Origin: Gelidibacter salicanalis
GTDB lineage: Bacteria > Bacteroidota > Bacteroidia > Flavobacteriales > Flavobacteriaceae
Length of the DNA: 43,632 nucleotides
NCBI RefSeq assembly: GCF_016469035.1
Contig: NZ_JAEHJZ010000033.1
Span: 8,037 to 51,668, forward strand
Reading direction: 5' to 3'
Positions 16,176 through 42,638 of the stretch are shown piece by piece. Both the position numbers and the translations under genes were made by a program. How positions within the stretch are numbered: the stretch's first letter is position 1; the number at the start of each line of letters is the position of its first letter. The notes below the pieces were generated by a model. The model made no database searches. It worked only from the letters and a program-made list of their open reading frames with translations, and had not been told where the DNA came from.

Positions 16176-16215
16176 CTAAGCGTGTTTTTTATATATAATT
16201 TAAATTAACCCAATC

Positions 16216-17639: not shown

Positions 17640-17640
17640 A

Positions 17641-18585: not shown

Positions 18586-18604
18586 CTATCTTAAAAAAGA
18601 TTTG

Positions 18605-24453: not shown

Positions 24454-25033
24454 ATTCTTAATAAGTATAGTGTCATAACCCGCGTTGTGCATTATAATTT
24501 AAAACTAAATTGGTCTCTTTTTTTAATGAATTTGAAGGCTGTTTTATAGTGGAACGTATGCCTCTATAGGTTTGTAAATTATCACGGAGTTCTCATTCAA
24601 AATATAATATCTGTGTCCGCTCAATACTGTATGTTGTAATTCTTTATATGCAGTTTGTTTTGATTAATCTTAAACCTAAGAAGATTAACAGACGATAATG
24701 CATCTTATCTAGCGGCTGTTCTATTTTATTACAGAGTTTTAACTGTGCTAAAAAAAGAGATCTTTCGTAGAAACTTTCTAAGCTAAATCCATTCTCTACT
24801 TTATAAAAAGCTTTAATTTTTAATAGGATTGACTGGCATCTCCATATTCTATATTTAGCGCTAATTTTCATTCTGGTAAGGTGCTCTTGTAGCGTCATCG
24901 TTGAAAAATTATAATTACAAAAATTTCATTTTTTTCATATACAAAGCGTTTAAGAAACTAAAATCTTAACAAATTCAGGTCAATAATGTGGATTTGTAAA
25001 TATTAATGGCTTTTAGCAATTTAATAACATTTT
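24454..25033. other. Intergenic region before the susC promoter
   Basis: About 580 bases carry no gene I can name. An 84-codon minus-strand open frame (24644-24898) has a basic, Leu- and Ile-rich product with no motif I recognise. It starts 135 bases from the susC operator and could be chance. No terminator with a clear stem follows the ASST-like gene. Confidence 0.4.
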
Positions 25034-25075
25034 TAATGCAAACGTTTGCATTAAACATATATTTTACTATATTTG
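25034..25075 (+). promoter_or_regulatory. LacI-type operator overlapping the susC promoter
   Basis: A perfect 20-base palindrome, TAATGCAAACGTTTGCATTA, spans 25034-25053. Its right half contains TTTG (25045-25048), which fits a Bacteroidota -33 element. TATATTTG, a match to TAnnTTTG, follows 19 bases later at 25068-25075. Transcription would start about 25 bases before susC. The centre CG and inverted halves are typical of LacI-family sites. The same core is found before the symporter gene at 35590. Confidence 0.85.
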
Positions 25076-25106
25076 AGTACACAAACACTATAATCACTCG
25101 ATATTT

Positions 25107-28100
25107 ATGAAAAAAACTATGCACTCATACCCTCTATCGCGGTGCAAACGAGAACTGACAAAACGCACAGTTTTGGGCATTTTATTCCTCGTTTGTTGCG
25201 CTTTTAGCAATGGGTACTCCCAAAATCAATCAGTTTCGGGAAGAATAACAGATGAGGCTACTGGAGAGCCTTTGTTTGGGGTTAATGTCATTGTTAAAGG
25301 AACTCTCAATGGCGTATCTTCTGATCTTAATGGTAATTATAGCATTAAGAATGTGACTCCGGAAAATATTTTAATGTTTTCATATATGGGGTTTACAGAC
25401 CAAGAAATTAGAATAGGCAACACTACTGAAATTAATGTGATCCTGATACCTTCCGTCGATCAGCTCGATGAATTGGTCATTGTTGGTTATGGTACGAAAA
25501 AGAAAAGAAACTTAACAGGTGCGATAGTTTCAGTGGGCAGTGAGGACATTGATAAATCGAATTTACAGGATCCGATATCCATTTTGCAAGGACGTGCTGC
25601 TGGAGTGCAGGTCACCTCTAACTCTGGTGCTCCAGGTGGAGGCATGAGTATTAAAGTAAGAGGGAATTCTTCTTTAAATTCTGGCAACTCGCCATTGTAT
25701 GTCGTTGATGGTGTTCCTATAGAATCAAGCTCATTGTCCTCCTTAAACGGAAGTGAGAATTTTGGTCTGAATCCTTTGGCTGATATTAACCCTGGAGATA
25801 TCCAATCCATAGAAATCTTGAAAGATGCTGCGTCAACAGCCATATATGGCTCACGTGCTGCCAATGGCGTTGTTCTGATTACAACAAAAAGAGGTATTTC
25901 AGGGAAAGCTCAGGTAGATCTAAATATATCCTCGGGTGTTAGTGAGATTCCTAGAAGACTTAGCGTTTTAAACGCCAGTCAGTATAGACAGGTTATTCTA
26001 GATTCCTATAGAAATATGGACAATCCTGTGACTCCAAATGGAATTATTTTAGATTCCTTAAATCCCAAAAACAATGGTGATGTTGATTGGCAAAAGGAAT
26101 TATTAAGAATAGCACCGCAAAATAAAATAGATCTTTCCGTACGTGGTGGAACCGATGATTTAAAATATGCGTGGAGTTCTTCATTTTTGGATCAGGATGG
26201 GATCATCTTAAATTCAAATTACAAAAGAGTTACTACAAGGTTAAACGTTGATTTTAAGGTTTCGGAGAAAGTTACTTTCGGGCAAAGTATATCTTATACC
26301 AACGGTGTTAATAATAGAATTAATGCAGGTGGTACGGGTAACCTAAGTGTGATTCGAGAGCTGCTAGTTCGTCCACCAATTTTTGCTGCGTATTTACCTG
26401 ATGGCTCCTATAATGGATACCAATTTGGAAGAAGAAATCCTATAGGTCTTGCAGAATTGGCAACACACCTGAACAAGAGCAATCGTGTAATTGGCAATCA
26501 ATATGTTGAATATAATATCTTAGAGAGTCTTAAATTAAGGAGTAATTTAAATTTGGATTATACGTCCATCAAGGAAGACGAGTTTATACCTTCTACATTA
26601 GACTATCGTGAAGGTTATAATTCAGGTTCAGTACGTTCAATAAACAACTTAACATGGGGGAATGAAACTTTTTTAAGTTTTAATAAACAACTTGGAGAAT
26701 CCCACAATTTATCGGCTCTTGCAGGACTTAGTTTTCAGGATTGGAAATACGAAAGAGTTGGTTTGGATGGGATGTTCTTTTCAAGTGATAATATAACCAC
26801 ATTAAATGGAGCAGGAACAATTTCAAATCAAGAGGTGAACATCACTACAGAGCATTCCATGCTTTCTTATTTTGGAAGGGTTTCCTATGATTATAAGGGA
26901 AAATACTTGTTTGAAGCCAATTTGAGAGCGGATGGGTCTTCCCGATTCGGCGAAGACCAACGTTTTGGTTATTTTCCATCTGCAGCGGTTGCATGGCGTT
27001 TTTCAGATGAAGCATTTTTAAAGAATGTCGACCTCCTCAATGACGCAAAGTTACGTTTAAGCGTTGGACAGACTGGTAATGAGTCTATTGGCAATTACAC
27101 CTCGCGGGGTGAATTTATGGTAGGAGCAAATTATTTGGACTATTCTGGAGCAGCTCCGTCTGTAATGCCAAATTCAGGTTTGACTTGGGAAACAACAACG
27201 CAGTATAATGGTGGTTTGGATCTTTCTTTCTTAAATAATAGATTGACGTTTAATGCCGATGTTTACTTAAAAATAACCGAAGATCTGCTTTATAACGTTC
27301 CTATCCCAAGAACAACCGGTTTCTCATATGTGACCCAAAATATTGGTAGCATAGAAAACAAAGGTATTGAGCTTTCTTTGAATTCAAGAAATTTAGTAGG
27401 AGACTTTAAATGGGAAACAAATTTCAATATTAGCGCAAACCGCAACCAAATAAAAGAGCTTCCAGAAAACTTATTGACAAACGGCTTTATTCAAAATGGA
27501 GACTTTCACATTTTAAAAGAAGGTTTACCAATTGGAACATTTTATGGCTACAAATTTAACGGCGTCTACTCACGAGATGAAGACAATGTTAACCAAGTGA
27601 CCAATGGGGCATTAGGACAACAATTTAAGGGTGGTGATCCTATTTGGGACGATGTGAATGGTGATAATATTATTGATGAAAATGATAAGCAGATTATTGG
27701 AGATGCCACTCCTGACTTTTTTGGAGGTATAAACAATACGTTTTCTTATAAAGGTCTTAGTTTAGGTGTTTTCCTTCAATTTTCTTATGGTAATGATATT
27801 TATAGCGAAATTAATCACCAAAGAAATTCGGTGGTGAGATATAACAACCTTTCTACAGATGCCTTAGACAGATGGAGAGAACAAGGTGACGTTACAAACT
27901 TTCCTAAACCAGTGAGTGATGACCCACTACGTTCAGATAGTAGAGTCCAAAGTCGTTGGGTAGAAGATGGTTCTTACATCAAATTGAAAAATATCAATAT
28001 TAGATATCGATTTCCTGATAATATGGTTGACAATTTGGGCATGAGAAAATTAGAAGTCTATGCATCAGCGCTCAATGTGTTGACATGGACACATTATACA

Positions 28101-28208
28101 GGGTTTGATCCTGATGTTAATTCATATAGCGGATTAAGAGAGGGAATTGATGAAGGCTCCTACCCACAAAGCCGAACTATAATGCTTGGGTTGAATATTG
28201 GATTTTAA
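25107..28208 (+). CDS. SusC/RagA-type TonB-dependent outer-membrane transporter
   Basis: This 1033-residue outer-membrane transporter takes up oligosaccharides with the SusD lipoprotein encoded next. A signal peptide ends near residue 39 (GYSQ). A carboxypeptidase-D-like regulatory domain follows (about 43-118, SGRITDEATGEPLFGVNVIV), then the TonB plug (ELVIVGYGTKKKRNLTGAI, with the ST(A)IYGSRAANGVVLITTK motif) and a barrel ending in LGLNIGF. Length and order are normal for the family. Glycan specificity cannot be read from it. The gene heads a six-gene run and is preceded by a LacI-type operator, so expression is probably induced by the glycan. Confidence 0.96.
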   Translation: MKKTMHSYPLSRCKRELTKRTVLGILFLVCCAFSNGYSQNQSVSGRITDEATGEPLFGVNVIVKGTLNGVSSDLNGNYSIKNVTPENILMFSYMGFTDQEIRIGNTTEINVILIPSVDQLDELVIVGYGTKKKRNLTGAIVSVGSEDIDKSNLQDPISILQGRAAGVQVTSNSGAPGGGMSIKVRGNSSLNSGNSPLYVVDGVPIESSSLSSLNGSENFGLNPLADINPGDIQSIEILKDAASTAIYGSRAANGVVLITTKRGISGKAQVDLNISSGVSEIPRRLSVLNASQYRQVILDSYRNMDNPVTPNGIILDSLNPKNNGDVDWQKELLRIAPQNKIDLSVRGGTDDLKYAWSSSFLDQDGIILNSNYKRVTTRLNVDFKVSEKVTFGQSISYTNGVNNRINAGGTGNLSVIRELLVRPPIFAAYLPDGSYNGYQFGRRNPIGLAELATHLNKSNRVIGNQYVEYNILESLKLRSNLNLDYTSIKEDEFIPSTLDYREGYNSGSVRSINNLTWGNETFLSFNKQLGESHNLSALAGLSFQDWKYERVGLDGMFFSSDNITTLNGAGTISNQEVNITTEHSMLSYFGRVSYDYKGKYLFEANLRADGSSRFGEDQRFGYFPSAAVAWRFSDEAFLKNVDLLNDAKLRLSVGQTGNESIGNYTSRGEFMVGANYLDYSGAAPSVMPNSGLTWETTTQYNGGLDLSFLNNRLTFNADVYLKITEDLLYNVPIPRTTGFSYVTQNIGSIENKGIELSLNSRNLVGDFKWETNFNISANRNQIKELPENLLTNGFIQNGDFHILKEGLPIGTFYGYKFNGVYSRDEDNVNQVTNGALGQQFKGGDPIWDDVNGDNIIDENDKQIIGDATPDFFGGINNTFSYKGLSLGVFLQFSYGNDIYSEINHQRNSVVRYNNLSTDALDRWREQGDVTNFPKPVSDDPLRSDSRVQSRWVEDGSYIKLKNINIRYRFPDNMVDNLGMRKLEVYASALNVLTWTHYTGFDPDVNSYSGLREGIDEGSYPQSRTIMLGLNIGF

Positions 28209-28219
28209 ATAGAAATAAC

Positions 28220-29596
28220 ATGAGATACATAACAAATTATAAAATAATAATTACTGGAATTCTAGCCTTTTTTGCATTTTCCTGTTCAGATAGTATATTG
28301 GATAAAGATCCCGTGAGCAGTTTTTCTGGCCAAGGCTTTTATAAAACCTCAAGTGATGCCCAAGCAGGAGTCTATGGTATATATGACGCATTACAATCGA
28401 CATTTAGGGTGAATTTTGCCTATTGGGGCGAAGGAAGAGCAGATGCTGTTGCCACTAATCATGCGGGTGATCCTGTGGCCTTAATACAAAATAACCTTAC
28501 GCAATCTATAAGTTCAGCACGTTGGAACAATATTTACGAAACTGTCAGTCGCGCAAACTACGCTATTAAGTATATTCCTGATGTTTTTGAAAATGAAAGT
28601 GAATTTAGTCTTCAACTCATAGCACAAGCTAAAGCCCTTAGGGCATTATCCTATTTTTTTGCAGTAAGAGTTTGGGGAGATGTGCCCTTAATTACTGAGC
28701 CTTATGAAAGTGTAGACCAAGAATTTTTTGTTCCGAAAACGGATAAGGAAAAGGTGTTAGATCAAATAGTGGAAGATTTAATTTTTGCTTCCGAAAACTG
28801 TAAGGACAACTTCTCCGGCGATAAAACAAGAATATTATTCACCAAAGGCGGTGCCAATGCCTTGTTGACACAGGTATATATGTGGAGAAAACAATATAAT
28901 GAAGCTATTGAATCAGCCGAAAAAGTCTTGGATAATAGTCAATATTCGTTAGTATCCATGAATGATTGGTCTAAAATATTTACTTCTGGTTATTCCAATG
29001 AAAGTATTTTTGAAGTGGGGTATAATGAAACGCAAACCAATGCATTGAGAGTACTTTATGCTTTAGGTTCCGACAGTGATTATTTCCCAAGTGAGTCATT
29101 TAAGGCCGCTTTTGAAGATGGAGATTTAAGAAAGAATTTAATTTACGATACAACAAACGCCACACCTAAAAAGATTTGGAAATTCTTTGGCGAAGGCTTT
29201 AGTGATGAAAGTCCAGATCCTTCCTCCAACAATATCGTTCTATTGCGTTTAGCAGACATCATTCTTTTAAAAGCAGAAGCGCATAATAAATTGGGCAACA
29301 ATAGTGAGGCAATTAAATTATTAAATTTAATTAGAAAAAGAGCAGAGATTCCAGAATTGGACGAAACTCAAGCTACTGCTTTGTATGGCAGTGTAGAATC
29401 AGCTATTTTACATGAGCGACTGATCGAGTTGTCTTTTGAAGGACATCGTTGGTTTGATTTGGTAAGAACCGGAAGAGCCATTTCTGTTATGGGTCCTATT
29501 AATGGTTTGAGTGATGAAGGCAATTTTGTTTGGCCTATACATGAGGATGCTTTAAATAGAAATCCTAGCCTACAGCAAAATGACTTTTACAGATAG
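28220..29596 (+). CDS. RagB/SusD-family glycan-binding lipoprotein
   Basis: This 458-residue outer-membrane lipoprotein has the lipobox FSC near residue 22 and then the typical LDKDPVSSFSG. The body has the SusD helical fold: AQAKALRALSYFFAVRVWGDVPLIT in the middle, ILLKAEAHNKLGN, and LSFEGHRWFDLVRTG near the end. It starts 11 bases after susC and acts as the lid of the SusC channel. Its short size fits smaller members of the family. Nothing is truncated. Confidence 0.95.
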   Translation: MRYITNYKIIITGILAFFAFSCSDSILDKDPVSSFSGQGFYKTSSDAQAGVYGIYDALQSTFRVNFAYWGEGRADAVATNHAGDPVALIQNNLTQSISSARWNNIYETVSRANYAIKYIPDVFENESEFSLQLIAQAKALRALSYFFAVRVWGDVPLITEPYESVDQEFFVPKTDKEKVLDQIVEDLIFASENCKDNFSGDKTRILFTKGGANALLTQVYMWRKQYNEAIESAEKVLDNSQYSLVSMNDWSKIFTSGYSNESIFEVGYNETQTNALRVLYALGSDSDYFPSESFKAAFEDGDLRKNLIYDTTNATPKKIWKFFGEGFSDESPDPSSNNIVLLRLADIILLKAEAHNKLGNNSEAIKLLNLIRKRAEIPELDETQATALYGSVESAILHERLIELSFEGHRWFDLVRTGRAISVMGPINGLSDEGNFVWPIHEDALNRNPSLQQNDFYR

Positions 29597-29627
29597 AATG
29601 TGTTTTAAGAAAATAAATCCAAAAAAA

Positions 29628-31076
29628 ATGAAAAATTATAAATTAACCCCATACACGAAAATTGGAGTTTTTTTTACAATCGCTATGAGTCTCTTTTTCG
29701 GTTGTGAAATCCAAGATGGATTTTCCTATAAAGAATCCAATTCCAATAAACCTTTGGGTGTAACTGCATGGCAGTATATTCAAACACACGACTCATTAAA
29801 CCTATTGCAGGAAGCTATAAAACTGACTAATACTCAGGATTTATATGAGGCTAGCACAGGTAAAACATTTATTGCTCCTACAAATGAGGCTTTTAAGGAA
29901 TACCTTCAAAATAACACTTATCAAAGCTTATCAGAAGTGCCAGTACCAATTTTGCGTAATGCCCTAAAATATCACGTGGTGAACGCTTACGTTTCTTTTG
30001 ATGACCCCGATTTAATGGAAAGTAATAACCCCATAGCCTACACCAGTCAAAACGGACAGACTATATTTTTGTCGCACAGAAGTAACTTTACAGGTGTGGT
30101 CAATGAAGGTACAAGTAAACAATGGGAAATCGTTACCTCAAACCTCAAAGCTTTAAATGGTGTCATCCATGTGGTTCCGTCCATTGTTTATTTTTCTGCA
30201 CTTTCTTCAGGTTCAGAAGGACCCGATCCAACGGTTGTAAGAGATACTATTTTTCCAATAGCTGATGCTTACGTTAATGGAGGTAGTAGATCTTCACAAA
30301 ATTTTGGCGCAGATCCACTTTTGAAATTGAAAAATGTAACTGGCAATGGAGGATATGACAGGAAGTCTTTTTTAATGTACGACTTGAATGATTTTACCAA
30401 AGATGGGGTTATAGTAGATCTAAAACTTGAAATTGCGGTAAAATTTACTGCCGCAAAAGGAATTGACCTAGACGTTTATAATGTAAAGGATACTTTATGG
30501 ACCGAACTAGGCTTAACTTTTGATAATGCGACCCTTCCAACAACTTCTCCTGTATCTCGCATTACTTCAAGAAAGATAAGCACTTTTGAATTTGACATGA
30601 CAGATTACTATAAGAGCTTAGATTACAATGGGCGTATTTCTCTTATGATAGATCAAGAAGCAGGTAGAGATGAAACCGACGAATTTCATTCAAAGGAAAA
30701 CACAGGAGGATTCAATCCACCAATGCTGATTGCAAGATTTGCCTCAGGAGACACGGTATTGAGCATTGATAAAAACACAGGGTTCTCAGTAGAAAATGGA
30801 GAAGCTTATGTATTTAGTAATACTATTCTTCAGGTGTCAGGTTCGCCAGCGGGTGATGTGAAATTTATAATAAAAGAAGCGCCACAATATGGATGGTTGA
30901 TTCGCGGTGCCAGTATTTTGAAAGTTGGTGACTCCTTCACGCAAGAAGATGTTGATGTGATGAACTTGCTTTATATTCACAATGGTATAGGATCTTCAGA
31001 TAAAATTGTGGTTTCTGCTGAAGATAAAGCAGGTGCTAGTCTAAACAATTTTGAGATAGTGGTAACCGTACAATAA
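29628..31076 (+). CDS. Surface lipoprotein with FAS1, CBM96-like and cadherin-like domains
   Basis: This 482-residue lipoprotein has the lipobox FFGC at Cys26. A fasciclin (FAS1) domain follows (about 42-190, with FIAPTNEAFKEYLQ and NGVIHVVPSIV). Next comes a CBM96/DNRLRE-like carbohydrate-binding domain (about 205-360, with ADAYVNGGSRSSQNFG). A cadherin/CSPG-repeat-like C-terminal domain is at about 370-482 (QYGWLIRG, FTQEDVDVMNLLYIHNG). I chose the ATG at 29628; an upstream ATG at 29580 would overlap susD and gives no signal peptide. The place right after susD suggests a surface glycan-binding protein (SusE/SusF position). I do not know a described protein with exactly this order of domains. 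Confidence 0.78.
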   Translation: MKNYKLTPYTKIGVFFTIAMSLFFGCEIQDGFSYKESNSNKPLGVTAWQYIQTHDSLNLLQEAIKLTNTQDLYEASTGKTFIAPTNEAFKEYLQNNTYQSLSEVPVPILRNALKYHVVNAYVSFDDPDLMESNNPIAYTSQNGQTIFLSHRSNFTGVVNEGTSKQWEIVTSNLKALNGVIHVVPSIVYFSALSSGSEGPDPTVVRDTIFPIADAYVNGGSRSSQNFGADPLLKLKNVTGNGGYDRKSFLMYDLNDFTKDGVIVDLKLEIAVKFTAAKGIDLDVYNVKDTLWTELGLTFDNATLPTTSPVSRITSRKISTFEFDMTDYYKSLDYNGRISLMIDQEAGRDETDEFHSKENTGGFNPPMLIARFASGDTVLSIDKNTGFSVENGEAYVFSNTILQVSGSPAGDVKFIIKEAPQYGWLIRGASILKVGDSFTQEDVDVMNLLYIHNGIGSSDKIVVSAEDKAGASLNNFEIVVTVQ

Positions 31077-31086
31077 TTTGAGGCAA

Positions 31087-31842
31087 ATGTCATTTTTAAT
31101 AAAACCTGTCATTATATTTTTATTTTGGGTATCTGTTGCCATATTAACGTCTTGTTCGACGTCAGAAAGTGACACTAATGATCCTCCAACATTCACCACC
31201 AGAATTATTAAATTCTCTGGCTTTGAATGGATTGTGAGAACTTCAGATGAGAAGAAACAAGGCCCTGGACCGAATTTGTTCTCGGATTCTGCTGACAATG
31301 TTTGGGTAGATGAATATGGTAGGTTGCACTTAAAAATCGTTCAGCGCAATGGACATTGGTATTGTGCAGGGGTGACTTTAAAGCATTCGCAAGGTCATAA
31401 GAAATATGTCTTTTATTTATCAAGCAGAATAGATGAATTGGATGAAAACGTTGTTGGAGGTCTTTTTACCTATAAAAACGATAACGAAGAGATAGATATT
31501 GAATTTTCACGATGGTCAAAATTTGACAACCAGAACACGCAGTATGCAATACAACCGGGAGTCAATGCGGGAAATAAATACCGCTATGACATGGATTTAA
31601 CATCAAATCTCTCCACTCATTTCTTTGATTGGAAAGCGAAAGAAATTGAATTTGGGAGTTATGAAGGTCATACTTTAAATCCTGAAGATGATGCCATAAT
31701 CAATGCTTGGACTTATACAGGAAGTGATATCCCTCCCCTAAACGATGAACGCCTAAAATTAAATTTATGGTTGTTTAGAGGTCAAAGTCCTACGAATTCG
31801 CAGCCTGCAGAAATGATTATCGAACGGATTGAAATACTGTAA
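31087..31842 (+). CDS. Small GH16-like lipoprotein
   Basis: This 251-residue lipoprotein (lipobox TSC, Cys23) has a concanavalin-like beta-sandwich. At 135-139 it has EIDIE, the GH16 catalytic pattern with nucleophile Glu135, acid/base Glu139 and helper Asp137. Flanking marks include LHLKIVQRNGHWYCAG and a final ERIEIL. It starts with ATG at 31087, ten bases after the FAS1 gene; a TTG nine bases earlier is less likely. GH16 enzymes cut beta-1,3 or beta-1,4 glucan or galactan chains. Here, beside GH20 genes, it probably opens an amino-sugar-containing glycan. The exact substrate is unknown and a binding-only role is possible. Confidence 0.75.
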   Translation: MSFLIKPVIIFLFWVSVAILTSCSTSESDTNDPPTFTTRIIKFSGFEWIVRTSDEKKQGPGPNLFSDSADNVWVDEYGRLHLKIVQRNGHWYCAGVTLKHSQGHKKYVFYLSSRIDELDENVVGGLFTYKNDNEEIDIEFSRWSKFDNQNTQYAIQPGVNAGNKYRYDMDLTSNLSTHFFDWKAKEIEFGSYEGHTLNPEDDAIINAWTYTGSDIPPLNDERLKLNLWLFRGQSPTNSQPAEMIIERIEIL

Positions 31843-31866
31843 AGCATAAAGATAATTTAGAACTCG

Positions 31867-31907
31867 AAATTTAGGGGGATGGTAAAATTTTACTATTTCC
31901 CAAATTT
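31867..31907 (+). other. Long intercistronic dyad before nagB
   Basis: An imperfect 20-bp inverted repeat centred near 31887 pairs AAATTT (31867) through GGTAAAA with TTTTAC through AAATTT (ending 31907). It has one bulge and several G-U pairs. It is in the 112-base gap between the GH16-like gene and nagB. It may be an RNA-processing or attenuation site that lowers expression of the downstream genes. Confidence 0.45.
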
Positions 31908-31954
31908 CCTATTGAAACAAATAAAGAAGTTTAAAAATATAAAAACTATAAATA

Positions 31955-32719
31955 ATGCCAGATCTTAACCGAAATATTAATGTTTTTCCTGACAAAAAAA
32001 CGACTGGAATTGCCGCAGGAAAAGCTGTAGAAACTTGTATAGCAAAGTTGCAAAAGACCCAAGATACTGTAAGGATCATTTTTGCAGCAGCGCCTTCACA
32101 AGATTCAATGCTCGATTATTTAACGAAATCAACCTTAATAGATTGGAATAGAATAGTAGCATTCAATATGGATGAATATATAGGTTTAAAACCTAATGCT
32201 CCAGAGCTGTTTTCATCATACCTTGAGAATGCACTGTTTTCCAAAGTGCCTATTAAACACAAAAACACAATCCAGGTTGATAATGGTGTTTTAACTGAAA
32301 TTGAAAGGTATGCACAGCTATTAACGGATGAGCCTATAGACATTGTATGTTTAGGCATTGGAGAAAATGGTCATATTGCTTTTAATGATCCACCAGTAGC
32401 AGATTTCAATGATCCAAAAATCATTAAAGTGGTCGAGTTAGACAAGACCTGTCGCTTGCAACAAGTAAATGATGGATGTTTTGATTCCTTAAAGGAAGTA
32501 CCTGCAAAAGCAATCACATTAACTATCCCGACACTTTTAAGAGGAAAAAATTTGTTTTGTGTCGTGATCGGCATAAAAAAAAGCAATGCTGTTAAAAACA
32601 CGCTATTGGGGCCGATAAGCACCTCTTGCCCAGCCTCTATACTGACCACACACACCAACTGCAACTTTTTTATCGATGAAGATGCATATAAGGAAACTAC
32701 GAGACTTGAAAACGTATAA
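31955..32719 (+). CDS. nagB: Glucosamine-6-phosphate deaminase
   Basis: This 254-residue cytoplasmic enzyme converts glucosamine-6-phosphate to fructose-6-phosphate and ammonia. The general-base Asp is in FNMDEYIGL (Asp73), and the active-site His is in GIGENGHIAFNDPP (His140). Compared with E. coli NagB, the Asp before GH is Asn and the later Glu is Asp. The Asn form is also present in Bacillus-type NagB. It lacks the longer C-terminus of allosteric hexameric NagB. It sits within the SusCD operon beside a GH20, which supports a GlcNAc pathway. A 6-phosphogluconolactonase-like role is less likely. Confidence 0.88.
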   Translation: MPDLNRNINVFPDKKTTGIAAGKAVETCIAKLQKTQDTVRIIFAAAPSQDSMLDYLTKSTLIDWNRIVAFNMDEYIGLKPNAPELFSSYLENALFSKVPIKHKNTIQVDNGVLTEIERYAQLLTDEPIDIVCLGIGENGHIAFNDPPVADFNDPKIIKVVELDKTCRLQQVNDGCFDSLKEVPAKAITLTIPTLLRGKNLFCVVIGIKKSNAVKNTLLGPISTSCPASILTTHTNCNFFIDEDAYKETTRLENV

Positions 32720-32805
32720 GGCCAGTTGATGGCATCAATTTAATAATGATTAAAAAGTTTAATTGGCATGGTTGATGGCCATGTTTTAAACAAAATTACA
32801 GGAAG

Positions 32806-34368
32806 ATGAATTATAAATATATTTTTAAGTTTTTACTTTTTGCAAGCCTTGTTCTCATAGGAATCGAGGATGTTTCGGCACAAAAGCAGGCAAGAACTGA
32901 GAGTCATGATTTTAAAGTAAAAGGTTTCCATTTGGATTTACGGATACAAGTGATGACTCCAGCAGCTCTAAAAGCATTTGCTACTGAGCTTGCAGGTTTT
33001 GGAATGAACACCCTTGTGATGGAATGGGAAGGTACCTATCCTTTTGAAAAACACGCTACGATCTCCAATAAATACTCCTATTCGCGAGAGGAGGTGAAAG
33101 ATTTTATTGATCACTGCGAAAAATTAGGCATCAAAGTCATTCCGCTTCAACAAACCTTGGGTCATGTAGAATACATTTTGCGAAATTCCAGATATAGTGA
33201 TTTAAAGGAGGACAGGAAAGATATATCGCAATTGTGTCCTATGGAAGTTTTGGGTAACAAGGCGCTTTTTACTGATTTGTTTACTGATTTGGCGGAAATG
33301 CACAATTCCAATTATATCCATATAGGAGGTGATGAAACCTATTTATTGGGACATGACGAAAAATGTAAAGCAAAAGTAGAGAAAGAAGGAAAATCAAAAT
33401 TATTTGTTGATCACATGAAAATGATTGCTGAAATCGTTATTGGTTTAGGAAAGAAACCTGTCATGTGGGCCGATATCATTTTAAAATATCCAGAAGCAGC
33501 TGCAGAACTACCAGAAGAAACCATTTTTGTAGATTGGAACTACGGTTGGAAAGTTAATCATTTCGGAGATGTCTCTAAACTTCAAGGTTTGGGGTTTTCT
33601 TTTTGGGGAGCACCGTCAATAAGATGTCACCCAGACAACTGGTATGTTACGGACTGGCCTACGCATTTCAAGAATCAAAAGGAATTTATTCCTTATGCCC
33701 GCGAAGCCAATTATGAAGGTATGGTGATGACCTCCTGGTCTACCACCGGCCTGTACGGTTTTACGTGGGATGTAGGTTATGATGTCATCGATATGGTACA
33801 AATTAGAAACACGTATCCGTTATCTGGCTTCCGTATTTTAGTTGCAAGTTACGCTGAAGCCTTGGCTTCTAAAGATCCTATAGATCCTAAAGCTTTTATT
33901 TTAAACTATGGAAAAAAGCGGTTTGGATTAAAAAACAATGAGTCTCATACCTTGTATGATTTTTTATATGCCCCACCGGAATTGATCGCCAATGGCATAC
34001 CTACTAAAAGTCCAAGCATAGAATCTATGCTAAATGACTACGGTAAAATTAGAAGTCAATTAGTTTTGGTAAACCCAACAAAAAACAAAAAGGAATTTGA
34101 ACATTTTAAACTGATGGCCGATTTAAGAATACATTACATAGAATTTAAAGCGGTGGAATCGGAATATAATTCGGTTGATTTTACAACATCTCAAATCCCT
34201 CAGTTACTTAAAAAATTGACTAAAATATTAGATGATGCCGAGGTCTTGGGTGTAAGGTTTTCTGAACTGAACAAAGGGTTTCTTTACGATTCTGAATTAA
34301 ACGAACAAAATGAATTGAGAGTACAGCAAATGCGTGTTCTCCATGATAGGTTAGCGAAGTTAAAATAA
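32806..34368 (+). CDS. GH20-family beta-N-acetylhexosaminidase, catalytic domain without N-terminal GH20b
   Basis: This 520-residue exported protein has a signal peptide ending near residue 25 (VSAQ). The catalytic TIM barrel begins almost at once (KGFHLDLRIQVMTPAALKAF). The catalytic Asp-Glu pair is Asp176-Glu177 in HIGGDETYLLG. No GH20b-type accessory domain precedes it, unlike the second GH20 in this locus. The C-terminal 120 residues are helical. It would release GlcNAc or GalNAc from non-reducing ends in the periplasm. As the last gene of operon A it ends 23 bases before the end of the convergent lacI-type gene. Confidence 0.85.
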   Translation: MNYKYIFKFLLFASLVLIGIEDVSAQKQARTESHDFKVKGFHLDLRIQVMTPAALKAFATELAGFGMNTLVMEWEGTYPFEKHATISNKYSYSREEVKDFIDHCEKLGIKVIPLQQTLGHVEYILRNSRYSDLKEDRKDISQLCPMEVLGNKALFTDLFTDLAEMHNSNYIHIGGDETYLLGHDEKCKAKVEKEGKSKLFVDHMKMIAEIVIGLGKKPVMWADIILKYPEAAAELPEETIFVDWNYGWKVNHFGDVSKLQGLGFSFWGAPSIRCHPDNWYVTDWPTHFKNQKEFIPYAREANYEGMVMTSWSTTGLYGFTWDVGYDVIDMVQIRNTYPLSGFRILVASYAEALASKDPIDPKAFILNYGKKRFGLKNNESHTLYDFLYAPPELIANGIPTKSPSIESMLNDYGKIRSQLVLVNPTKNKKEFEHFKLMADLRIHYIEFKAVESEYNSVDFTTSQIPQLLKKLTKILDDAEVLGVRFSELNKGFLYDSELNEQNELRVQQMRVLHDRLAKLK

Positions 34369-34391
34369 TTGCTTAAAAAACAGTTACCTAG

Positions 34392-35417
34392 TTAAGCTCT
34401 TTTAGTAGATTCTCGAACAATTAACTCAGTTCTTATAGTGATGGTTTCTGAATTTACAGAATCATCTTTATCTTCAATTTGACGGATGAGCAGTTTGGCG
34501 GATGATTCCCCCATTTGGAAAGCACAGTCATTAATGGTCGTTAAATGAGGCTCGATAATCTTGGATATCGGATAATTACTAAACCCCACAATAGCCACCT
34601 GTTGTGGGATTTTTATATCGGCCTTTCTAAAAACTTGGATAAGACTCACTGCGGTATAATCATTGGCGCAAAAAATACCATCTGGTAATTCTGGAAGTTC
34701 TAAAAACCTATTTGCACAAGTAACACCCTCCTCATAACCAAGATTTTTTGTGTGTAAAATGAAATCTTCCTGTATGGGCAGGTTATGTTTCACGAGTGCT
34801 GCTTTAAAACCTTCCAAACGAGCTTTGAAAATGTTGGTTTTTTGGCTTCCTGCAATATGGCCAATCCGCTTACATCCGGAGGCGATCAAATGTTCTGTTG
34901 CAGTAAATGCAGATTCGAAATCATTGATAATTATTTTGTTGGCATCGAAATCGGTGGGCACCCGATCATAAAAAACTAGGGGCACACCTAATTTTTCAAA
35001 TTTCTTAAAATGATCGCATTTTTTGGTTTCAATACTTAAGCAGGCAATAACGCCATCCACCATTCTGTTTTGAAGGATTTTGACGATTTCTTTTTCTCTT
35101 TTAAGACAATCTTTAGACTGAAAAATGGTAACATTATATTCATTTTTATAAGCATAATCTTCTATACCACTAATTACCAGGGAATGAAAGTGAATATCAA
35201 TTCTAGGAACAATAATTCCAATGGATTTAGTTTTGTTCGTTCTAAAACTCGAGGCAATGGAATTTGGGATAAAGCCTAATTTCTCGGCCTTCTTTTTAAC
35301 CAATTTTTTTGTTGATTCGCTAATGGCAGGATGATTGTCTAAGGCTCTTGAAATCGTAGAAGCCGATAAGTTCAGGTCTTTAGCCAAATCTTTTAAAGTA
35401 ATCCTTCGATTTTTCAT
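34392..35417 (-). CDS. LacI-family transcriptional regulator of the amino-sugar locus
   Basis: This 341-residue repressor has an N-terminal LacI helix-turn-helix (about 6-28, TLKDLAKDLNLSASTISRAL), the hinge helix (NSIASSFRTNKTKSIGIIVP), and a periplasmic-binding-protein-like sensor domain to the end. It begins at ATG 35417. The gene lies between the two amino-sugar operons and points toward the first. Palindromes with core ATGCAAACGTTTGCAT before both operons are its likely targets, and a weaker copy lies 10 bases before its own start. The inducer is probably an amino sugar or its phosphate; this is an inference. Confidence 0.93.
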   Translation of the reverse strand: MKNRRITLKDLAKDLNLSASTISRALDNHPAISESTKKLVKKKAEKLGFIPNSIASSFRTNKTKSIGIIVPRIDIHFHSLVISGIEDYAYKNEYNVTIFQSKDCLKREKEIVKILQNRMVDGVIACLSIETKKCDHFKKFEKLGVPLVFYDRVPTDFDANKIIINDFESAFTATEHLIASGCKRIGHIAGSQKTNIFKARLEGFKAALVKHNLPIQEDFILHTKNLGYEEGVTCANRFLELPELPDGIFCANDYTAVSLIQVFRKADIKIPQQVAIVGFSNYPISKIIEPHLTTINDCAFQMGESSAKLLIRQIEDKDDSVNSETITIRTELIVRESTKRA

Positions 35418-35426
35418 GGTATCTTA

Positions 35427-35440
35427 GTCAAGCGTTTACA
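35427..35440 (-). promoter_or_regulatory. Degenerate LacI-type operator before the regulator gene
   Basis: On the minus strand, TGTAAACGCTTGAC matches the palindrome core TGCAAACGTTTGCA at 10 of 14 positions, including the AAACG centre. It is 10 bases from the regulator start, which is well placed for autorepression. Confidence 0.5.
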
Positions 35441-35589
35441 CATTCTTTTACTACACAATTCTCGAATGTAAATCTTTCACAAACAAAGGAAGGCGTATAA
35501 AGAGCTGCCTATCAAACAAAGTAATCAAAATAATAAAGCGAAATTATAAAAAATATCAGAATAAAAACAGATTATCAATAAAATTAGAG

Positions 35590-35630
35590 ATGCAAACGTT
35601 TGCATAAAAAATAAAAATAAAGTAGATTTG
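35590..35630 (+). promoter_or_regulatory. LacI-type operator and promoter of the symporter-nagA-GH20 operon
   Basis: The palindrome ATGCAAACGTTTGCAT spans 35590-35605. As before susC, its right half supplies TTTG (35599-35602) and a TAnnTTTG element (TAGATTTG, 35623-35630) follows after 20 bases. The leader to the symporter start is about 180 bases. The rest of 35418-35816 has no gene. Confidence 0.85.
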
Positions 35631-35816: not shown

Positions 35817-37295
35817 ATGCAATTACTCGATTGGTTCGTTTTAGTCCTCTATTTTACCATGCTTTTATCCATTGGATTGTGGGCATATTCACGAGTTAAA
35901 AATTCAGCTGACTTTTATACGGCGGGAGGGAAGTTGCCCTGGTGGCTTTCTGGAATTTCACATCACGTTTCTGGTTATAGCGGCGCTGTTTTTGTGGCCT
36001 ACGCAGGGATTGCCTATACGCATGGCTTTACACTGTATGTTTGGTGGGCATTTACGGTTTCTATTGCTACTCTGTTGGCGGCATTTTATATTGCTCCAAG
36101 ATGGGCGCGTTTGCGGAAGTTTTCAAACATTCAATCTCCTACTGAATATCTACTTGTGAGATACAATGTTCAGACGCAACAACTTATTGCGTGGACAGGA
36201 TCAATTATTAAGGTGTTTGATACGGGCGGAAAACTTGCGGCAATTGCAGTTTTATTAAATGTGTTTAGTGGTGCTTCAATCACTTTTGGGATTTTACTGG
36301 TTGGTGCGGTATCCTTAATTTACATTACTATAGGTGGGCTTTGGGCCGATGTATGGAATGATTTTGCTCAATTTGTAGTCCAATTGATTGCAGGAATTAC
36401 CATGTTCATAGTCATTGTTATGAACTTGGAAGGTGGTGTTGCAAACATATTTACAATCTGGGAGAAACTTCCCGAAGGAAATTCAAGTTTTTTCAATGAT
36501 CCTTATACTATCACTTTTGCATTTACCATGCTATTAATTAATTTCTTTAGTTATAGTGGGGGTACATGGAATCTGGCTACTCGTTTTATTTCTTCATCTT
36601 CTGCAAAAGTTGCGAAAAAAGCTGGAGTTTTATCGTCCATTTTATACCTGATATGGCCTTTGGTGTTGCTTTATCCAATGTTTGCTGCACCTCTGTTTTT
36701 TGATTCACTTGCGGATCCTACGTTGTCATATGGTATGATGGCGAGGAAGTTTTTACCTGCAGGATTGCTTGGTCTCGTCCTTGCCTCTATGTTTGCTAAT
36801 ACCCTATCTATGACCGCGTCAGATTCGAATACGGTTTCCGCGGTTATCTGTAGAGATATTTTGCCTAAACTCTTCCCTAAATTTCAAAATCTGTCCAGAA
36901 AGAAAGAACTCAGACTCGCAAGAATCACCACATTCTGCTTTACGCTCATTACCATCCTCGTAGGGTTAAATGCCAGCAAATTTGGGGGTATTTTTGGTTT
37001 GATTGTAACATGGTTTGCTGCCTTACTTGGTCCAATCTCAGTACCTATGATCCTTGGACTTCTTCCTATATTCAAAAAAAGTGGAAGTACTGCGGCTATT
37101 GGATCAATAATTGGTGGCTTATCGGTTTTTATTATTCTTAAATTGGTAGAGGAAAAATCACTTGCTTTTGAAATGGGGGCACCGATTATGGCTTCTTTGA
37201 TTCTTTTTGTAGTCATAGGATTATTTAACAAGAAGCCGGTTCCAGAAAAAGTTACTGACTTGCATTTTAACTTATCGAATAAAATAAAGAGTTAA
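35817..37295 (+). CDS. SSS-family sodium/solute symporter, probable amino-sugar importer
   Basis: This 492-residue inner-membrane carrier of the sodium:solute symporter family (LeuT-like fold) has about 13 hydrophobic segments. Family marks are DFYTAGGKLPWWLSGISHHVSGYSG near the start, GGLWADVWNDFAQFVVQ, and SMTASDSNTVSAVICRDI in the later part. It heads operon B with nagA three bases downstream, so its substrate is probably GlcNAc or another amino sugar. A symporter delivers unphosphorylated sugar, so a separate kinase is needed. The start ATG at 35817 follows a long leader with the LacI-type operator. Confidence 0.9.
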   Translation: MQLLDWFVLVLYFTMLLSIGLWAYSRVKNSADFYTAGGKLPWWLSGISHHVSGYSGAVFVAYAGIAYTHGFTLYVWWAFTVSIATLLAAFYIAPRWARLRKFSNIQSPTEYLLVRYNVQTQQLIAWTGSIIKVFDTGGKLAAIAVLLNVFSGASITFGILLVGAVSLIYITIGGLWADVWNDFAQFVVQLIAGITMFIVIVMNLEGGVANIFTIWEKLPEGNSSFFNDPYTITFAFTMLLINFFSYSGGTWNLATRFISSSSAKVAKKAGVLSSILYLIWPLVLLYPMFAAPLFFDSLADPTLSYGMMARKFLPAGLLGLVLASMFANTLSMTASDSNTVSAVICRDILPKLFPKFQNLSRKKELRLARITTFCFTLITILVGLNASKFGGIFGLIVTWFAALLGPISVPMILGLLPIFKKSGSTAAIGSIIGGLSVFIILKLVEEKSLAFEMGAPIMASLILFVVIGLFNKKPVPEKVTDLHFNLSNKIKS

Positions 37296-37298
37296 GAT

Positions 37299-38450
37299 AT
37301 GATACTGAAAGCATTGGATTATAGAACAGGTAAACCTATTCGCGTTGAAGTAAACGAAGACTGCATTCATGATATTTCAGGATGTATCGCATTTGAGGAT
37401 ACACACTATTATATAGCTCCAGGTTTAGTTGATCTTCAAATTAATGGATTTAAAGGGATTGATTTTAACAAAGTAGGATTGGAGGTTGCTGATGTGTATA
37501 AGCTCACCCAAACACTATTTGGAAAGGGAATCACTACATTTTTTCCGACAATTATAACCAATAGTGACGAGGCTACCGTCTCCTTGATAAAAGTCATTTC
37601 TTTGGCTTGTGAGAGTAATACAGAAGTCAACGACTGCATTGGGGGCATTCATCTTGAAGGGCCTTTTCTATCGCTCGAGGATGGACCCAGAGGTGCACAT
37701 CCGAAACAATATATAAAAAAGCCTAATTGGGAGTTATTTGAAAAATGGCAAAAAGCTGCTGGAGGTAGAATACGCATCATAACTTTATCTCCCGAATGGC
37801 CAGAAGCGACCGATTTTATTAAACGTTGCACAGATACTGGCGTGATTGTTTCTATTGGACATACTGCTGCAAGTCCGCATCAAATTAATCAAGCCATTGA
37901 AGCGGGAGCTACGATGTCTACCCACTTAGGAAATGCATCACATGCGATGCTCCCTCGGCATGTGAATTATTTGTGGGAACAATTAGCTTCTGATGCGCTT
38001 TGGTCCACATTGATTGCGGACGGCTTTCATTTGCCCGATGCGTTGCTAAAGATTTTCTTAAGAACAAAACCGAACAAGAGCATTTTGGTGAGCGATGCAA
38101 CTTCTTATGCCGATCTGCCTAACGGTTCATATACTGGTCACATTGGTGGCGATGTTGTATTGGATCATTCAGGGAAATTATACATGAAAGATAGTCCTAC
38201 TGTGCTTGCTGGTTCTGCCCAATCCTTACTTTGGTGCGTTAATCAATTGGTCGCAAAGCATATCTTGCCATTATCTGAGGCCTGGAATATGGCCTCCATA
38301 AAACCGACGGTTGCGCTTTTTGGAAAAGTCCACAATGATTTAGAGGTTGGACGCCGAGCCGATCTCGTGATCTTTAAAAATGAAAATAATAATTTAAGAA
38401 TCGTTAAAACTATTAAAAGTGGGAAACTGGTTTATTCAGCGCTGGATTAA
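37299..38450 (+). CDS. nagA: N-acetylglucosamine-6-phosphate deacetylase
   Basis: This 383-residue cytoplasmic amidohydrolase removes acetate from GlcNAc-6-phosphate. Conserved sites are present in order: GLVDLQINGF, the metal ligand Glu in HLEGPFLS, IGHTAAS, the loop STHLGNASHAM, and the catalytic Asp in VSDATSYADL. E. coli NagA has a HTFNAM-type loop where this has HLGNASHAM, as in several Bacteroidota relatives. It is three bases after the symporter gene and 33 before the second GH20, so the three form one operon. It works with nagB of operon A. Confidence 0.92.
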   Translation: MILKALDYRTGKPIRVEVNEDCIHDISGCIAFEDTHYYIAPGLVDLQINGFKGIDFNKVGLEVADVYKLTQTLFGKGITTFFPTIITNSDEATVSLIKVISLACESNTEVNDCIGGIHLEGPFLSLEDGPRGAHPKQYIKKPNWELFEKWQKAAGGRIRIITLSPEWPEATDFIKRCTDTGVIVSIGHTAASPHQINQAIEAGATMSTHLGNASHAMLPRHVNYLWEQLASDALWSTLIADGFHLPDALLKIFLRTKPNKSILVSDATSYADLPNGSYTGHIGGDVVLDHSGKLYMKDSPTVLAGSAQSLLWCVNQLVAKHILPLSEAWNMASIKPTVALFGKVHNDLEVGRRADLVIFKNENNNLRIVKTIKSGKLVYSALD

Positions 38451-38483: not shown

Positions 38484-40094
38484 ATGAATTATTTGAAAGC
38501 GAAATATTTAGGGGTAGTGATAATGATTTTTGTGACATCACTAAAAGCGCAAGTGGATATTATCCCGCAACCGATGGAGATAAACATAGGAGAAAATGTA
38601 TTTACTCTGAATTATAAAACTGCAATCATAGCCAGCGGTAAAACTGATAATTCTGTAAAATTTTTATCTGCTTTTCTAGAAAAGGGATTTTATCGAAAAC
38701 CAAAGCACAAAAAAAAAGGGAACGGTATTGAATTGGTGTTGAGCGCTAACTTGAAAGCAGAACTAGGGAAAGAGGGCTATCACTTAAAGACCACTTCCAA
38801 TAATGTCAAGATTGAAGCTGCTACAGAAACTGGCTTGTTTTATGGCATCCAATCCTTCCGACAGCTATTGCCCAGTGATTTTGAAACTCAAATCTATTCA
38901 AATAAATCTCTAGAGATTCCTGGCGTGGAATTAAAAGATAAACCTCGGTTTTCTTGGAGGGCTTTTATGCTGGATGAATCACGCCATTTTAAAGGTGTTG
39001 CTGCCGTTAAAGATTTATTGGATCAAATGGCGCTGCTTAAAATGAACGTCTTCCATTGGCACCTCACCGATGATCAAGGTTGGCGAATAGAAATAAAAAA
39101 ATATCCCAAACTCACTGAAATTGGAAGTCATAGATTGGATACCCAATCCAGTAGAAAAAGCCCAGAGCGCGTTGGTGCGCCTCACGAAGGTTTTTATACA
39201 CAAGAGCAAATTAAGGATATAATCCAATATGCTCAGGAAAGACATATTCAAATCATCCCTGAAATTGAAATGCCGGGTCATGCAACAGCTGCCATTGCTT
39301 CATATCCATGGCTTGGAGTTTTAGGGACAACAAAAGACGTTTCTGTGACTTTTGGTAAACTGGACGACTCTTTCAATATTTCAGATGATAAAGTATATGA
39401 ATTTCTGACAGATGTACTCAGCGAAGTCTTTGAACTCTTTCCAAGTAAAATTGTACATATAGGTGGAGATGAAGTACGGTTTGGAACTTGGGAGAACTCT
39501 AAAGAAATACAAAACAAAATCAAAAAAGAGGGACTGAAATCTCCCGCTGACCTTCAAATATTCTTTACCAATCAAATATCCAATTTTGTAGAATCTCATG
39601 GACATCGGATGATGGGCTGGAATGAAGTACTTGGTGATCAGGTTCATGAATGGGACGAAGGTTCCAATATGAATGTTAATGAGAAATTATCCGAAACAGC
39701 TATTATTCATTTTTGGAAAGGAAGTCTCGACCTCATCAAAAAAGCCGTTATCAATGGACATGATGTTGTAAATTCTTTACACTCCATGACCTATTTGGAT
39801 TATGATTATAAGTCTCTTCGGTTATCTAAGGCGTACTCTTTTGATCCGATACCAGAAGGATTAGAAGAAGAATATCATGATAAAATATTAGGACTTGGCT
39901 GTCAAATGTGGAGTGAATGGATCCCCGAGGTGAAACAAATGGAAAATCAAGTTTATCCTAGAATAGCAGCTTATGCTGAGGTAGGCTGGACAATGAAATC
40001 AAATAAGAATTACGAAAATTTTATTCAAGCTCTTGTAAAACTTGAAAAACGATGGGAGCTTTCTGGAATAAATTATCATGAAGGATTTGATTAA
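38484..40094 (+). CDS. GH20 beta-N-acetylhexosaminidase with GH20b domain
   Basis: This 536-residue exported enzyme has a signal peptide ending near residue 22 (KAQ). An N-terminal GH20b domain (about 25-150) precedes the catalytic barrel. The barrel has WHLTDDQGWRIEIKKYPKL, the catalytic pair Asp329-Glu330 in HIGGDEVRFG and, near the end, WSEWIPEV and YPRIAAYAEVGW. It follows the classical hexosaminidase plan and uses substrate-assisted catalysis via the N-acetyl group. Likely periplasmic. It is the last gene of operon B and is followed by a terminator. Confidence 0.95.
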   Translation: MNYLKAKYLGVVIMIFVTSLKAQVDIIPQPMEINIGENVFTLNYKTAIIASGKTDNSVKFLSAFLEKGFYRKPKHKKKGNGIELVLSANLKAELGKEGYHLKTTSNNVKIEAATETGLFYGIQSFRQLLPSDFETQIYSNKSLEIPGVELKDKPRFSWRAFMLDESRHFKGVAAVKDLLDQMALLKMNVFHWHLTDDQGWRIEIKKYPKLTEIGSHRLDTQSSRKSPERVGAPHEGFYTQEQIKDIIQYAQERHIQIIPEIEMPGHATAAIASYPWLGVLGTTKDVSVTFGKLDDSFNISDDKVYEFLTDVLSEVFELFPSKIVHIGGDEVRFGTWENSKEIQNKIKKEGLKSPADLQIFFTNQISNFVESHGHRMMGWNEVLGDQVHEWDEGSNMNVNEKLSETAIIHFWKGSLDLIKKAVINGHDVVNSLHSMTYLDYDYKSLRLSKAYSFDPIPEGLEEEYHDKILGLGCQMWSEWIPEVKQMENQVYPRIAAYAEVGWTMKSNKNYENFIQALVKLEKRWELSGINYHEGFD

Positions 40095-41460: not shown

Positions 41461-41844
41461 TTATAAAACGAAGGTTTCAAATAGGTATTCCAATTCTTGT
41501 TCTGGATCCATACATAAGCCTGAATGTGTTTTGGAGCTTTGAATGATTGTACTTCTACATGCGGCCAACCATCTAAAACGGTCAGAGACTTCAAGTTGCC
41601 CAATAGTCCCGCTGTCAGCAGTGCCTTCACATATGTTTTGCCAAGCTTCCAAATGGTCTTTTAACATCTGAATATCTAAATCCTCCGAAAAAGCCTCCAG
41701 CTTTTTTTTGTCAATTTTATATTTGACCCCCAAATAATTTTTTCGCTTAGAAAAAAGGAGCACGCCCACATTAAAGAATTCTTCACGTTCTACTTTGGGA
41801 ACAACCCTAATAATGGCATATTCATAAGTGACTTTATCTTGCAT
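41461..41844 (-). CDS. DUF3037 family protein
   Basis: This 127-residue cytoplasmic protein matches the DUF3037 family by its start (YEYAIIRVVPKVEREEFFNVGVLLFS) and by its length. It has no signal peptide or membrane segment. The biochemical role of the family is unknown to me. Its first codons overlap the last codons of the HipA-like kinase gene (41834-41844), so the two are translationally coupled and probably act together. Confidence 0.85.
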   Translation of the reverse strand: MQDKVTYEYAIIRVVPKVEREEFFNVGVLLFSKRKNYLGVKYKIDKKKLEAFSEDLDIQMLKDHLEAWQNICEGTADSGTIGQLEVSDRFRWLAACRSTIIQSSKTHSGLCMDPEQELEYLFETFVL

Positions 41845-42613
41845 CTTGCGCTTCTTTTGCTAAAATGTCAATCATTGATAGTTTCGTGGTCAGGTAACGC
41901 ATGTAAGCTGTTCTGATCTCCTCAGGAGATATGGTGTCTGCTTCATTTATCAACCAATCCTCAGGAATGCTTTCTATAATGCCCTCAATAGTAGTACTGT
42001 CTAGGGTTAGTTCAATACTCTTGGCGGCTGCAGGTAATTGTGTGGCTTGAGCCAACAACACATGATCTTTTATAAGTGGAAAGGTCCTGATCAAATGATT
42101 TTCCCACGTTGGCCAATTATGATGAAAGTAAAAACTGGCGCCATTATCGATGATCCATAACTCCTTGTTCCAAAAGAGCAAGTTCGGATTTTTTTGGGTT
42201 CGGTCAATATTACTGATGATACTGTCTAATAATACCACTTTGGAAGCGATGAGACCGTCAATTTTTGTGACCAATGGATCTATGGTGATGGCTCCAGACA
42301 GAAAGTGTAATCCCAAATTAAGACCCACGCTAAACTTTAATAAATCTTGAATTTCTTCGTCGGGCTCTGTTTTACTGAACGAATTATCCAGATTCATAAA
42401 AACGACTTCCGGAACTTTTAGTCCGATGGCCCTTGCTAATTCGCCTCCAATAAATTCGGCGATTAATGCTTTTTTGCCTTGTCCGGCGCCCCGAAATTTT
42501 AGGACATATAAAAAGCCGTCGTTGGCTTTAACAATGGCGGGCAAAGAGCCGCCTTCGCGTAAAGGGGTAACATATTGCACCACATCTACGGTGCGAATAT
42601 CAAGTGCATTCAT
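41834..42613 (-). CDS. HipA-like family kinase
   Basis: This 259-residue protein resembles the compact HipA-like kinases. Candidate nucleotide-binding Lys39 is in YVLKF. A catalytic stretch SNIDRTQKNPNLL gives Asp137 with Asn142 and Asn144, and DNG at 156-158 stands for DFG. These marks suggest an active kinase. It lacks the longer HipA N-terminal subdomain, and no HipB-like DNA-binding partner is nearby. I chose the ATG at 42613; a GTG two codons upstream is the alternative. It overlaps the DUF3037 gene by 11 bases, as in many other genomes as far as I recall. Its target is unknown. Confidence 0.85.
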   Translation of the reverse strand: MNALDIRTVDVVQYVTPLREGGSLPAIVKANDGFLYVLKFRGAGQGKKALIAEFIGGELARAIGLKVPEVVFMNLDNSFSKTEPDEEIQDLLKFSVGLNLGLHFLSGAITIDPLVTKIDGLIASKVVLLDSIISNIDRTQKNPNLLFWNKELWIIDNGASFYFHHNWPTWENHLIRTFPLIKDHVLLAQATQLPAAAKSIELTLDSTTIEGIIESIPEDWLINEADTISPEEIRTAYMRYLTTKLSMIDILAKEAQDAR

Positions 42614-42638
42614 AAGCACGAAGGTACTAAAAATGTCA

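Follow-up and report, generated by a model that had tools for sequence, protein, structure and literature searches.

Introduction

What holds back the amino-sugar genes of Gelidibacter salicanalis, and through which DNA sites is it done? The question is raised by a stretch of 43,632 nucleotides, here called the window (NCBI RefSeq assembly GCF_016469035.1, contig NZ_JAEHJZ010000033.1, positions 8,037 to 51,668 of the forward strand), in which two rows of putative amino-sugar genes, one starting with a susC gene and the other with a sodium:solute symporter gene, lie on either side of a gene for a LacI-family regulator, and in which the same palindrome is placed on the predicted promoter of each row. 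From the sequence alone, it had been proposed that this palindrome is the operator of the neighboring regulator, which would repress both rows by blocking their -33 boxes. The computational analysis described here makes it quite probable that the two palindromes are the main operators of the repressor encoded at 34392-35417. The sequences of the sites, their spacing, their conservation, and their rarity in the genome were observed directly. Positions are those of the window, and papers marked by a PMC number are cited from excerpts of their text.

Two palindromes lie on two predicted promoters

The sites under study and the regulator gene are as follows.

25032-25055: operator 1 (predicted), a 24-bp perfect palindrome, TTTAATGCAAACGTTTGCATTAAA, with the 16-bp core ATGCAAACGTTTGCAT at 25036-25051; before susC, also in relatives
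25045-25075, plus strand: promoter 1 (predicted), TTTG at 25045-25048, N19, TATATTTG at 25068-25075
34392-35417, minus strand: LacI-family regulator gene (P0001), between the two gene rows
35590-35605: operator 2 (predicted), the 16-bp palindrome ATGCAAACGTTTGCAT, perfect over 16 bp only; also in relatives
35599-35630, plus strand: promoter 2 (predicted), TTTG at 35599-35602, N20, TAGATTTG at 35623-35630

As originally predicted, the 16-mer is exact at both positions, and at the first of them it does lie within a longer palindrome, the perfect length of which is 24 bp and not the 20 bp first given. Both sites are even palindromes with a central CG upstream of their putative target genes, as is usual for LacI-family operators; a survey of the family describes even, CG-centered palindromes and reports autoregulation in 72% (PMC4052901). 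Throughout the G. salicanalis genome (5,163,451 bases in 682 contigs), the exact 16-mer is found at these two places only. In shuffled versions of the window, matches with up to three mismatches averaged 0.44, and eight of 100 shuffles reached two such matches, while the two real sites have no mismatches.

Looser searches of the same genome gave little beyond background: four places against three for the backwards control when up to two mismatches to the 16-mer were permitted, and 16 places against 14 when at most one mismatch was allowed in the 12-bp core. The two extra 2-mismatch sites were rejected as regulon members, one because it lies inside an open reading frame (ORF) of 626 aa, the other because it falls on the opening codons of an ORF that begins shortly after another gene. 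Fifteen of the 16 core sites were fetched (the sixteenth, on C662, was left out), and 11 of these are within ORFs of at least 100 aa; the remaining four are operators 1 and 2 and two sites upstream of other LacI genes, on C423 and C314.

The site follows the operon start in relatives

A search of the named genomes yielded 80 loci, 46 of which (L005-L050) were scanned for sites, with L051-L084, at 25-30% LacI identity, left out. In 29 of them (L005-L033), which make up the ortholog set, the LacI protein is 56-94% identical to that of the window, the closest being that of Gelidibacter algens at 94%. All 29 come from Bacteroidota, namely from Flavobacteriaceae, Bacteroidales, and a small number of other groups. 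An operator-type site was found upstream of lacI in all 29, with no more than three mismatches in 28; L020 instead has two sites with four mismatches each, for which it was kept outside the 28-locus counts of spacing and of lacI starts and added to the 39-site counts. The distance from the site to the lacI start is mostly about 120-260 bases, reaching 495 in L029. Gene order is variable: the symporter-nagA-GH20 row may adjoin lacI while susC is some 10 kb distant, which is the order of the window, or susC or a GH20 gene may itself be next to lacI, and in L010 a nagB gene downstream of lacI carries its own site. Because the palindrome stays with the operon start despite such rearrangement, these loci are strong evidence for an operator. 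The match of regulator and operator, which the original prediction had supposed, gains support from the 29 loci, from this persistence, and from the additional sites, described below, that 26 of 28 loci have where lacI begins.

One half of the palindrome coincides with the predicted -33 element

TTTG at -33 together with TAnnTTTG at -7 is the consensus of Bacteroidota sigma-A promoters (PMC6847099), and TAnnTTTG has been confirmed for promoters of Flavobacterium psychrophilum (PMC9723704). Both predicted promoters of the window have the two elements, the TTTG being supplied in each case by the right half of the palindrome and TAnnTTTG following after 19 and 20 bases, exactly as had been claimed. 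The palindrome has TTTG on both sides, so the direction away from the operon serves as an internal control. In the 28 loci, TTTG-N19/20-TAnnTTTG was found toward the operon at 32 of 36 operon-facing sites and away from it at none of the 36. The same spacing follows 41 of the 7302 TTTG occurrences in these loci, and shuffling of the 40 bases downstream of the operon sites produced on average 0.12 spaced pairs, with a maximum of three in 2000 shuffles. With the window and L020 added, the spacing is kept at 35 of 39 sites, 24 at N20 and 11 at N19, a result that favors the proposed placement over the -33 region.

These counts bear on the strongest alternative, in which the spacing is a by-product: the core contains TTTG anyway, its contact at -33 would be unimportant, and the operator would repress from just upstream of the -7 element. 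Such a view draws on Flavobacterium johnsoniae, whose promoters have a weak -33 motif and stand out more by AT-rich motifs at -18 and -28 (PMC6847099). We consider it somewhat unlikely, since the spacing is 19 or 20 at 35 of 39 sites and since, over the 39 sites, mismatches to the operator consensus number 15 in the promoter-side half of the palindrome and 25 in the far half, a difference given here without a significance figure. Another idea, which we put forward tentatively and at somewhat less than even confidence, is that one operator half doubles as the sigma -33 contact, so that repressor and polymerase would compete for the same bases. The palindrome and TAnnTTTG at 19-20 bases would then be a single unit, preserved across Flavobacteriaceae and as far as Bacteroidales, and together with the weaker copy for autoregulation it would form a portable amino-sugar switch.

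A probable weaker third operator at the lacI start

35426-35441, minus strand: third operator (predicted, decayed), GTGTAAACGCTTGACT, spanning lacI positions -24 to -9; 5 mismatches, 2.5 bits; better sites in most relatives

With a weight matrix built from operon sites only and a threshold of 9 bits, 26 of 28 loci were found to have a site over the lacI start region (L008 and L015 failing), compared with one of 28 reversed slices and three of 2674 random slices. The site begins ahead of the lacI start by 18-26 bases in the majority of Flavobacteriaceae loci, by 51 in L028 and L031, by 41-43 in L021-L027, and by 25 in L029 and L030. These sites are poorer than those of the operons, with a mean of 3.1 mismatches (26 sites) versus 1.0 (39 sites). 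They likely bring about weak negative autoregulation, and lacI itself seems to be part of the regulon in most relatives; the two operons first proposed as the regulon are retained, but as a definition they seem to fall short by this gene. The copy in the window has the low score listed above and therefore seems lost or very weak; that of the Gelidibacter locus L012 scores 13.7 bits. Near operator 1, nothing besides the operator itself exceeded -2.0 bits in 24454-25106 that might act as an auxiliary operator, and in Aureibaculum (L005-L007), a second site lies 118-122 bp upstream of the first.

Which LacI-family protein may bind the palindromes

The gene between the two operons does encode a LacI-family protein, as had been stated: it matches PF00356 with 39.1 bits (cut-off 27) and PF13377 with 103.3 bits, aligns over its full length with the CcpA and PurR chains, and combines an N-terminal LacI helix-turn-helix (HTH) with a periplasmic-binding-type effector domain. 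Its genome, however, contains ten LacI-type HTH matches, and a paralog, for example that on C423 or C314, might bind the palindromes, either in place of the local repressor or competing with it. The C423 paralog and its row of TonB receptor, MGH1-like, and symporter genes have CGCAAACGTTTGCG (L144:4874-4885) immediately upstream, with a second similar stretch, and the C314 paralog is preceded by CGAAAACGTTTGCG; cross-talk between the C423 site and the regulator studied here is possible.

The family genomes show how closely the palindrome goes with this regulator. Among 149 of them, the G. salicanalis genome included, seven have the exact palindrome. A LacI protein of at least 68% identity is encoded in eight genomes, again counting that of G. 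salicanalis (a ninth, G129, with a LacI of 56%, was left aside). Five of these eight have the exact palindrome compared with two of the 141 others (Fisher p = 2e-6), and in all eight, lacI is preceded by a site that scores 21 bits or more. The two genomes that have the exact palindrome without a close ortholog are G020 and G018. In G020, the palindrome stands between a LacI gene (39% identity) and a row for an aldolase, a PfkB kinase, a thiamine diphosphate (TPP) enzyme, an aldehyde dehydrogenase, and a xylose-isomerase-type protein, from which we infer an inositol-type operon. G026 and G113 also have near-identical sites, at 64 and 92 bases ahead of the start of LacI relatives that are 39-40% identical. 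Two further observations concern these genomes: in G020, the palindrome core is present both before a 1020-aa ORF that has a SusD gene after it and before the inositol-type row (L155:3508 and L155:18504), and in G018, the exact palindrome is located between AraC-type and extracytoplasmic-function sigma genes (L156:5658), with the three listed LacI matches of that genome elsewhere.

The relaxed pattern WNGCAAACGTTTGCNW occurs in 24 of 149 genomes, which are all eight with an ortholog of at least 68% (one of them, G144, having it on another contig than lacI) and 16 others. With these 16 set against 13 of 149 for the backwards control, the pattern by itself is hardly informative. Before the genes of LacI relatives of 40-44% identity (16 loci, L034-L050 without L039), a CG-centered CAATCGATTG palindrome lies within 330 bases of lacI in nine of 16 loci, six of the nine being GCAATCGATTGC, while AAACGTTT was found in none of the 16 among sites with up to three mismatches. 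The AAACGTTT core accompanies the close orthologs without being confined to them.

The hinge helix was considered as a source of the motif. A leucine of this helix has a minor-groove role in LacI-family proteins. In the alignment, the regulator (residues about 52-60, NSIASSFRTNK) has F where CcpA has L, and F is common to the listed orthologs of at least 68% identity. The exchange was ruled out as an explanation of the motif, because the listed orthologs L020-L031 have L and a similar operator core.

With the core common to several LacI genes, the protein is not named by sequence alone. Binding by a paralog nevertheless appears improbable to us because the site accompanies this lacI gene in all 29 ortholog loci and recurs at its own start in 26 of 28, and we retain the locally encoded repressor as the protein most probably acting on the palindromes.

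Genes of the two rows and the likely inducer

25107-28208, plus strand: SusC-type TonB-dependent receptor (TIGR04056, 917 bits)
28220-29596, plus strand: SusD-type lipoprotein
29580-31076, plus strand: surface-type protein with Fasciclin, CBM96, and Cadherin_3 domains
31078-31842, plus strand: 254-aa lipoprotein-like protein (GH16 match with E 0.36, below cut-off; EIDIEF motif)
31955-32719, plus strand: NagB-like sugar-6-phosphate deaminase/isomerase (nagB NCBIfam 123.4 bits, cut-off 236.9)
32806-34368, plus strand: divergent GH20-type protein
35817-37295, plus strand: sodium:solute symporter (SSF)
37299-38450, plus strand: NagA-like N-acetylhexosamine-6-phosphate deacetylase (209.9 bits, NCBIfam cut-off 225.65)
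38484-40094, plus strand: GH20 beta-N-acetylhexosaminidase

The first six genes form the row of promoter 1, and the last three form that of promoter 2. Together, they contain putative nagA, nagB, and hexosaminidase genes, the kinds of targets that a NagR-type regulon has, although the NagA and NagB matches are below their NCBIfam cut-offs. The presence of NagA-like and NagB-like genes and of two GH20-type genes suggests that the inducer is an N-acetylhexosamine. It may be N-acetylglucosamine (GlcNAc), N-acetylgalactosamine (GalNAc), or a derivative, and the genes do not discriminate between the first two. A GH109-type protein, of a family of N-acetylgalactosaminidases, is encoded in the window at 10671-12161. 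A search of the G. salicanalis genome for BadF-type kinases (PF01869) gave a single match, which is below the cut-off; ROK kinases were not searched for. Among the ortholog loci, 20 of 29 have a NagB homolog whose identity is 54% or higher. The 254-aa protein, which gave no Pfam family above cut-off and no match in a PDB search, has homologs of 56-89% identity in flavobacterial copies of the locus and is possibly a divergent GH16-type enzyme.

Discussion

A model of the switch can be outlined, in which binding, repression, the inducer, the extents of the operons, and promoter activity are inferred. When inducer is absent, a repressor dimer would occupy the palindrome, the promoter-side half of which would lie where the housekeeping sigma factor makes its -33 contact, 19-20 bases from the TAnnTTTG -7 element. 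The bound repressor would bar RNA polymerase from the operons running from susC and susD to nagB and GH20 and from the symporter through nagA to GH20. An amino-sugar signal, either GlcNAc, GalNAc, or a derivative, would free the repressor from its operator. A weaker operator where lacI begins would, in the majority of relatives, let the repressor limit its own production, an arrangement apparently decayed in G. salicanalis. One might suppose instead that the LacI protein acts from these sites as an activator or a dual regulator, as some members of the family do activate, and the sign of the effect is not set by sequence data. We regard this as very unlikely because the overlap with -33 at a spacing kept in 35 of 39 sites fits occlusion by a repressor. 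That the palindromes arose by chance, as short inverted repeats frequently do in AT-rich DNA, is practically negligible given their genome-wide count and their conservation next to lacI.

Several observations weigh against simple repression by the local regulator. As for the operator, its core in the form of GCAAACGTTTGC is common to the two paralogs of the genome and to the 39-40% LacI relatives of G020, G026, and G113, and it is also used by PurR and MalR (PMC3739930, PMC4451989). The apparent swap between CAATCGATTG and AAACGTTT, tried as proof of specificity, is weakened by the same three genomes. The suggestion that wide occurrence of the palindrome without the regulator would contradict its role applies in part: two of the 141 genomes lacking a close ortholog have the exact palindrome, one of them before the inositol-type operon next to another LacI gene, and G026 and G113 add their near-identical sites. 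The ortholog loci are kin, so their counts are not independent events, and nine of the 29 (L009, L019, L021, L024, L026, and L028-L031) have no close NagB homolog within the DNA examined, the homolog being either more distant or absent from it; L021 and L026 are short and do have a close SusC. As for the promoters, four of the 39 operon sites (L009, the first site of L024, L028, and L031) are without the exact spacing or box, L028 and L031 having TAGATTTA at N20, and TAnnTTTG stands at 22 or 23 bases in the away direction at two sites (L008 and L024). The weakness of the -33 motif in F. johnsoniae also counts here, as does the near absence of G at -10/-9 in its promoters (TAHHTTTG; PMC6847099): the -7 element of site 2, TAGATTTG, carries a G at -10, and that of site 1 has no such G. 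A G at these positions is present in nine of the 35 boxes, the one at 35623 included. Finally, the autoregulatory site is poor in the window, and a full TTTG/TAnnTTTG pair within 120 bases of the lacI-start site, searched for upstream only, was found in none of 27 loci, with TAnnTTTG alone in 12 of 27.

The switch is of an ordinary, expected kind for sugar use. Local sugar regulators of the LacI family likewise have a neighboring lacI gene, local sugar operons, autoregulation, and a 16-bp even, CG-centered palindrome; the survey describing them covers one Bacteroides group only (PMC4052901), whereas the present site is tied to TTTG/TAnnTTTG promoters of Bacteroidota, and the main text of that survey contains neither "nagr" nor "glucosamine." NagR of Shewanella is a LacI-family repressor of nagA, nagB, transport, and hexosaminidase genes, and its gel shift is suppressed by GlcNAc (PMC3223726). 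NagR is described for gammaproteobacteria (PMC5343134), whereas the present regulon includes SusC/SusD genes. Nearly the same core, GCAAACGTTTGC, appears in putative PurR sites of Haemophilus influenzae (PMC3739930) and in MalR sites of Streptococcus pneumoniae (PMC4451989), but with other regulators and other genes. NanR of Bacteroides is predicted to control the use of sialic acid and N-acetylglucosamine, but it belongs to the ROK family and not to LacI (PMC3878776). No paper describing the present regulon was recognized in the literature searched, which did not extend to supplements, RegPrecise, or most subscription papers. The novelty is small and consists of the well-kept spacing between operator and -7 element and the weaker third operator. 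A regulon with operator, predicted promoter, and targets over 29 related loci makes a testable model of simple repression on the TTTG/TAnnTTTG promoters of Bacteroidota. It may also supply an inducible promoter part for use in flavobacteria and help to find out what the SusC/SusD system imports.

Other features of the window

At 14634-20548, a gene for a collagen-repeat protein is followed by genes for a protein with a type IX secretion signal, for PorP/SprF, and for an OmpA/PD40 protein. At 41461-42619, a HipA_2-type kinase gene adjoins a DUF3037 gene.

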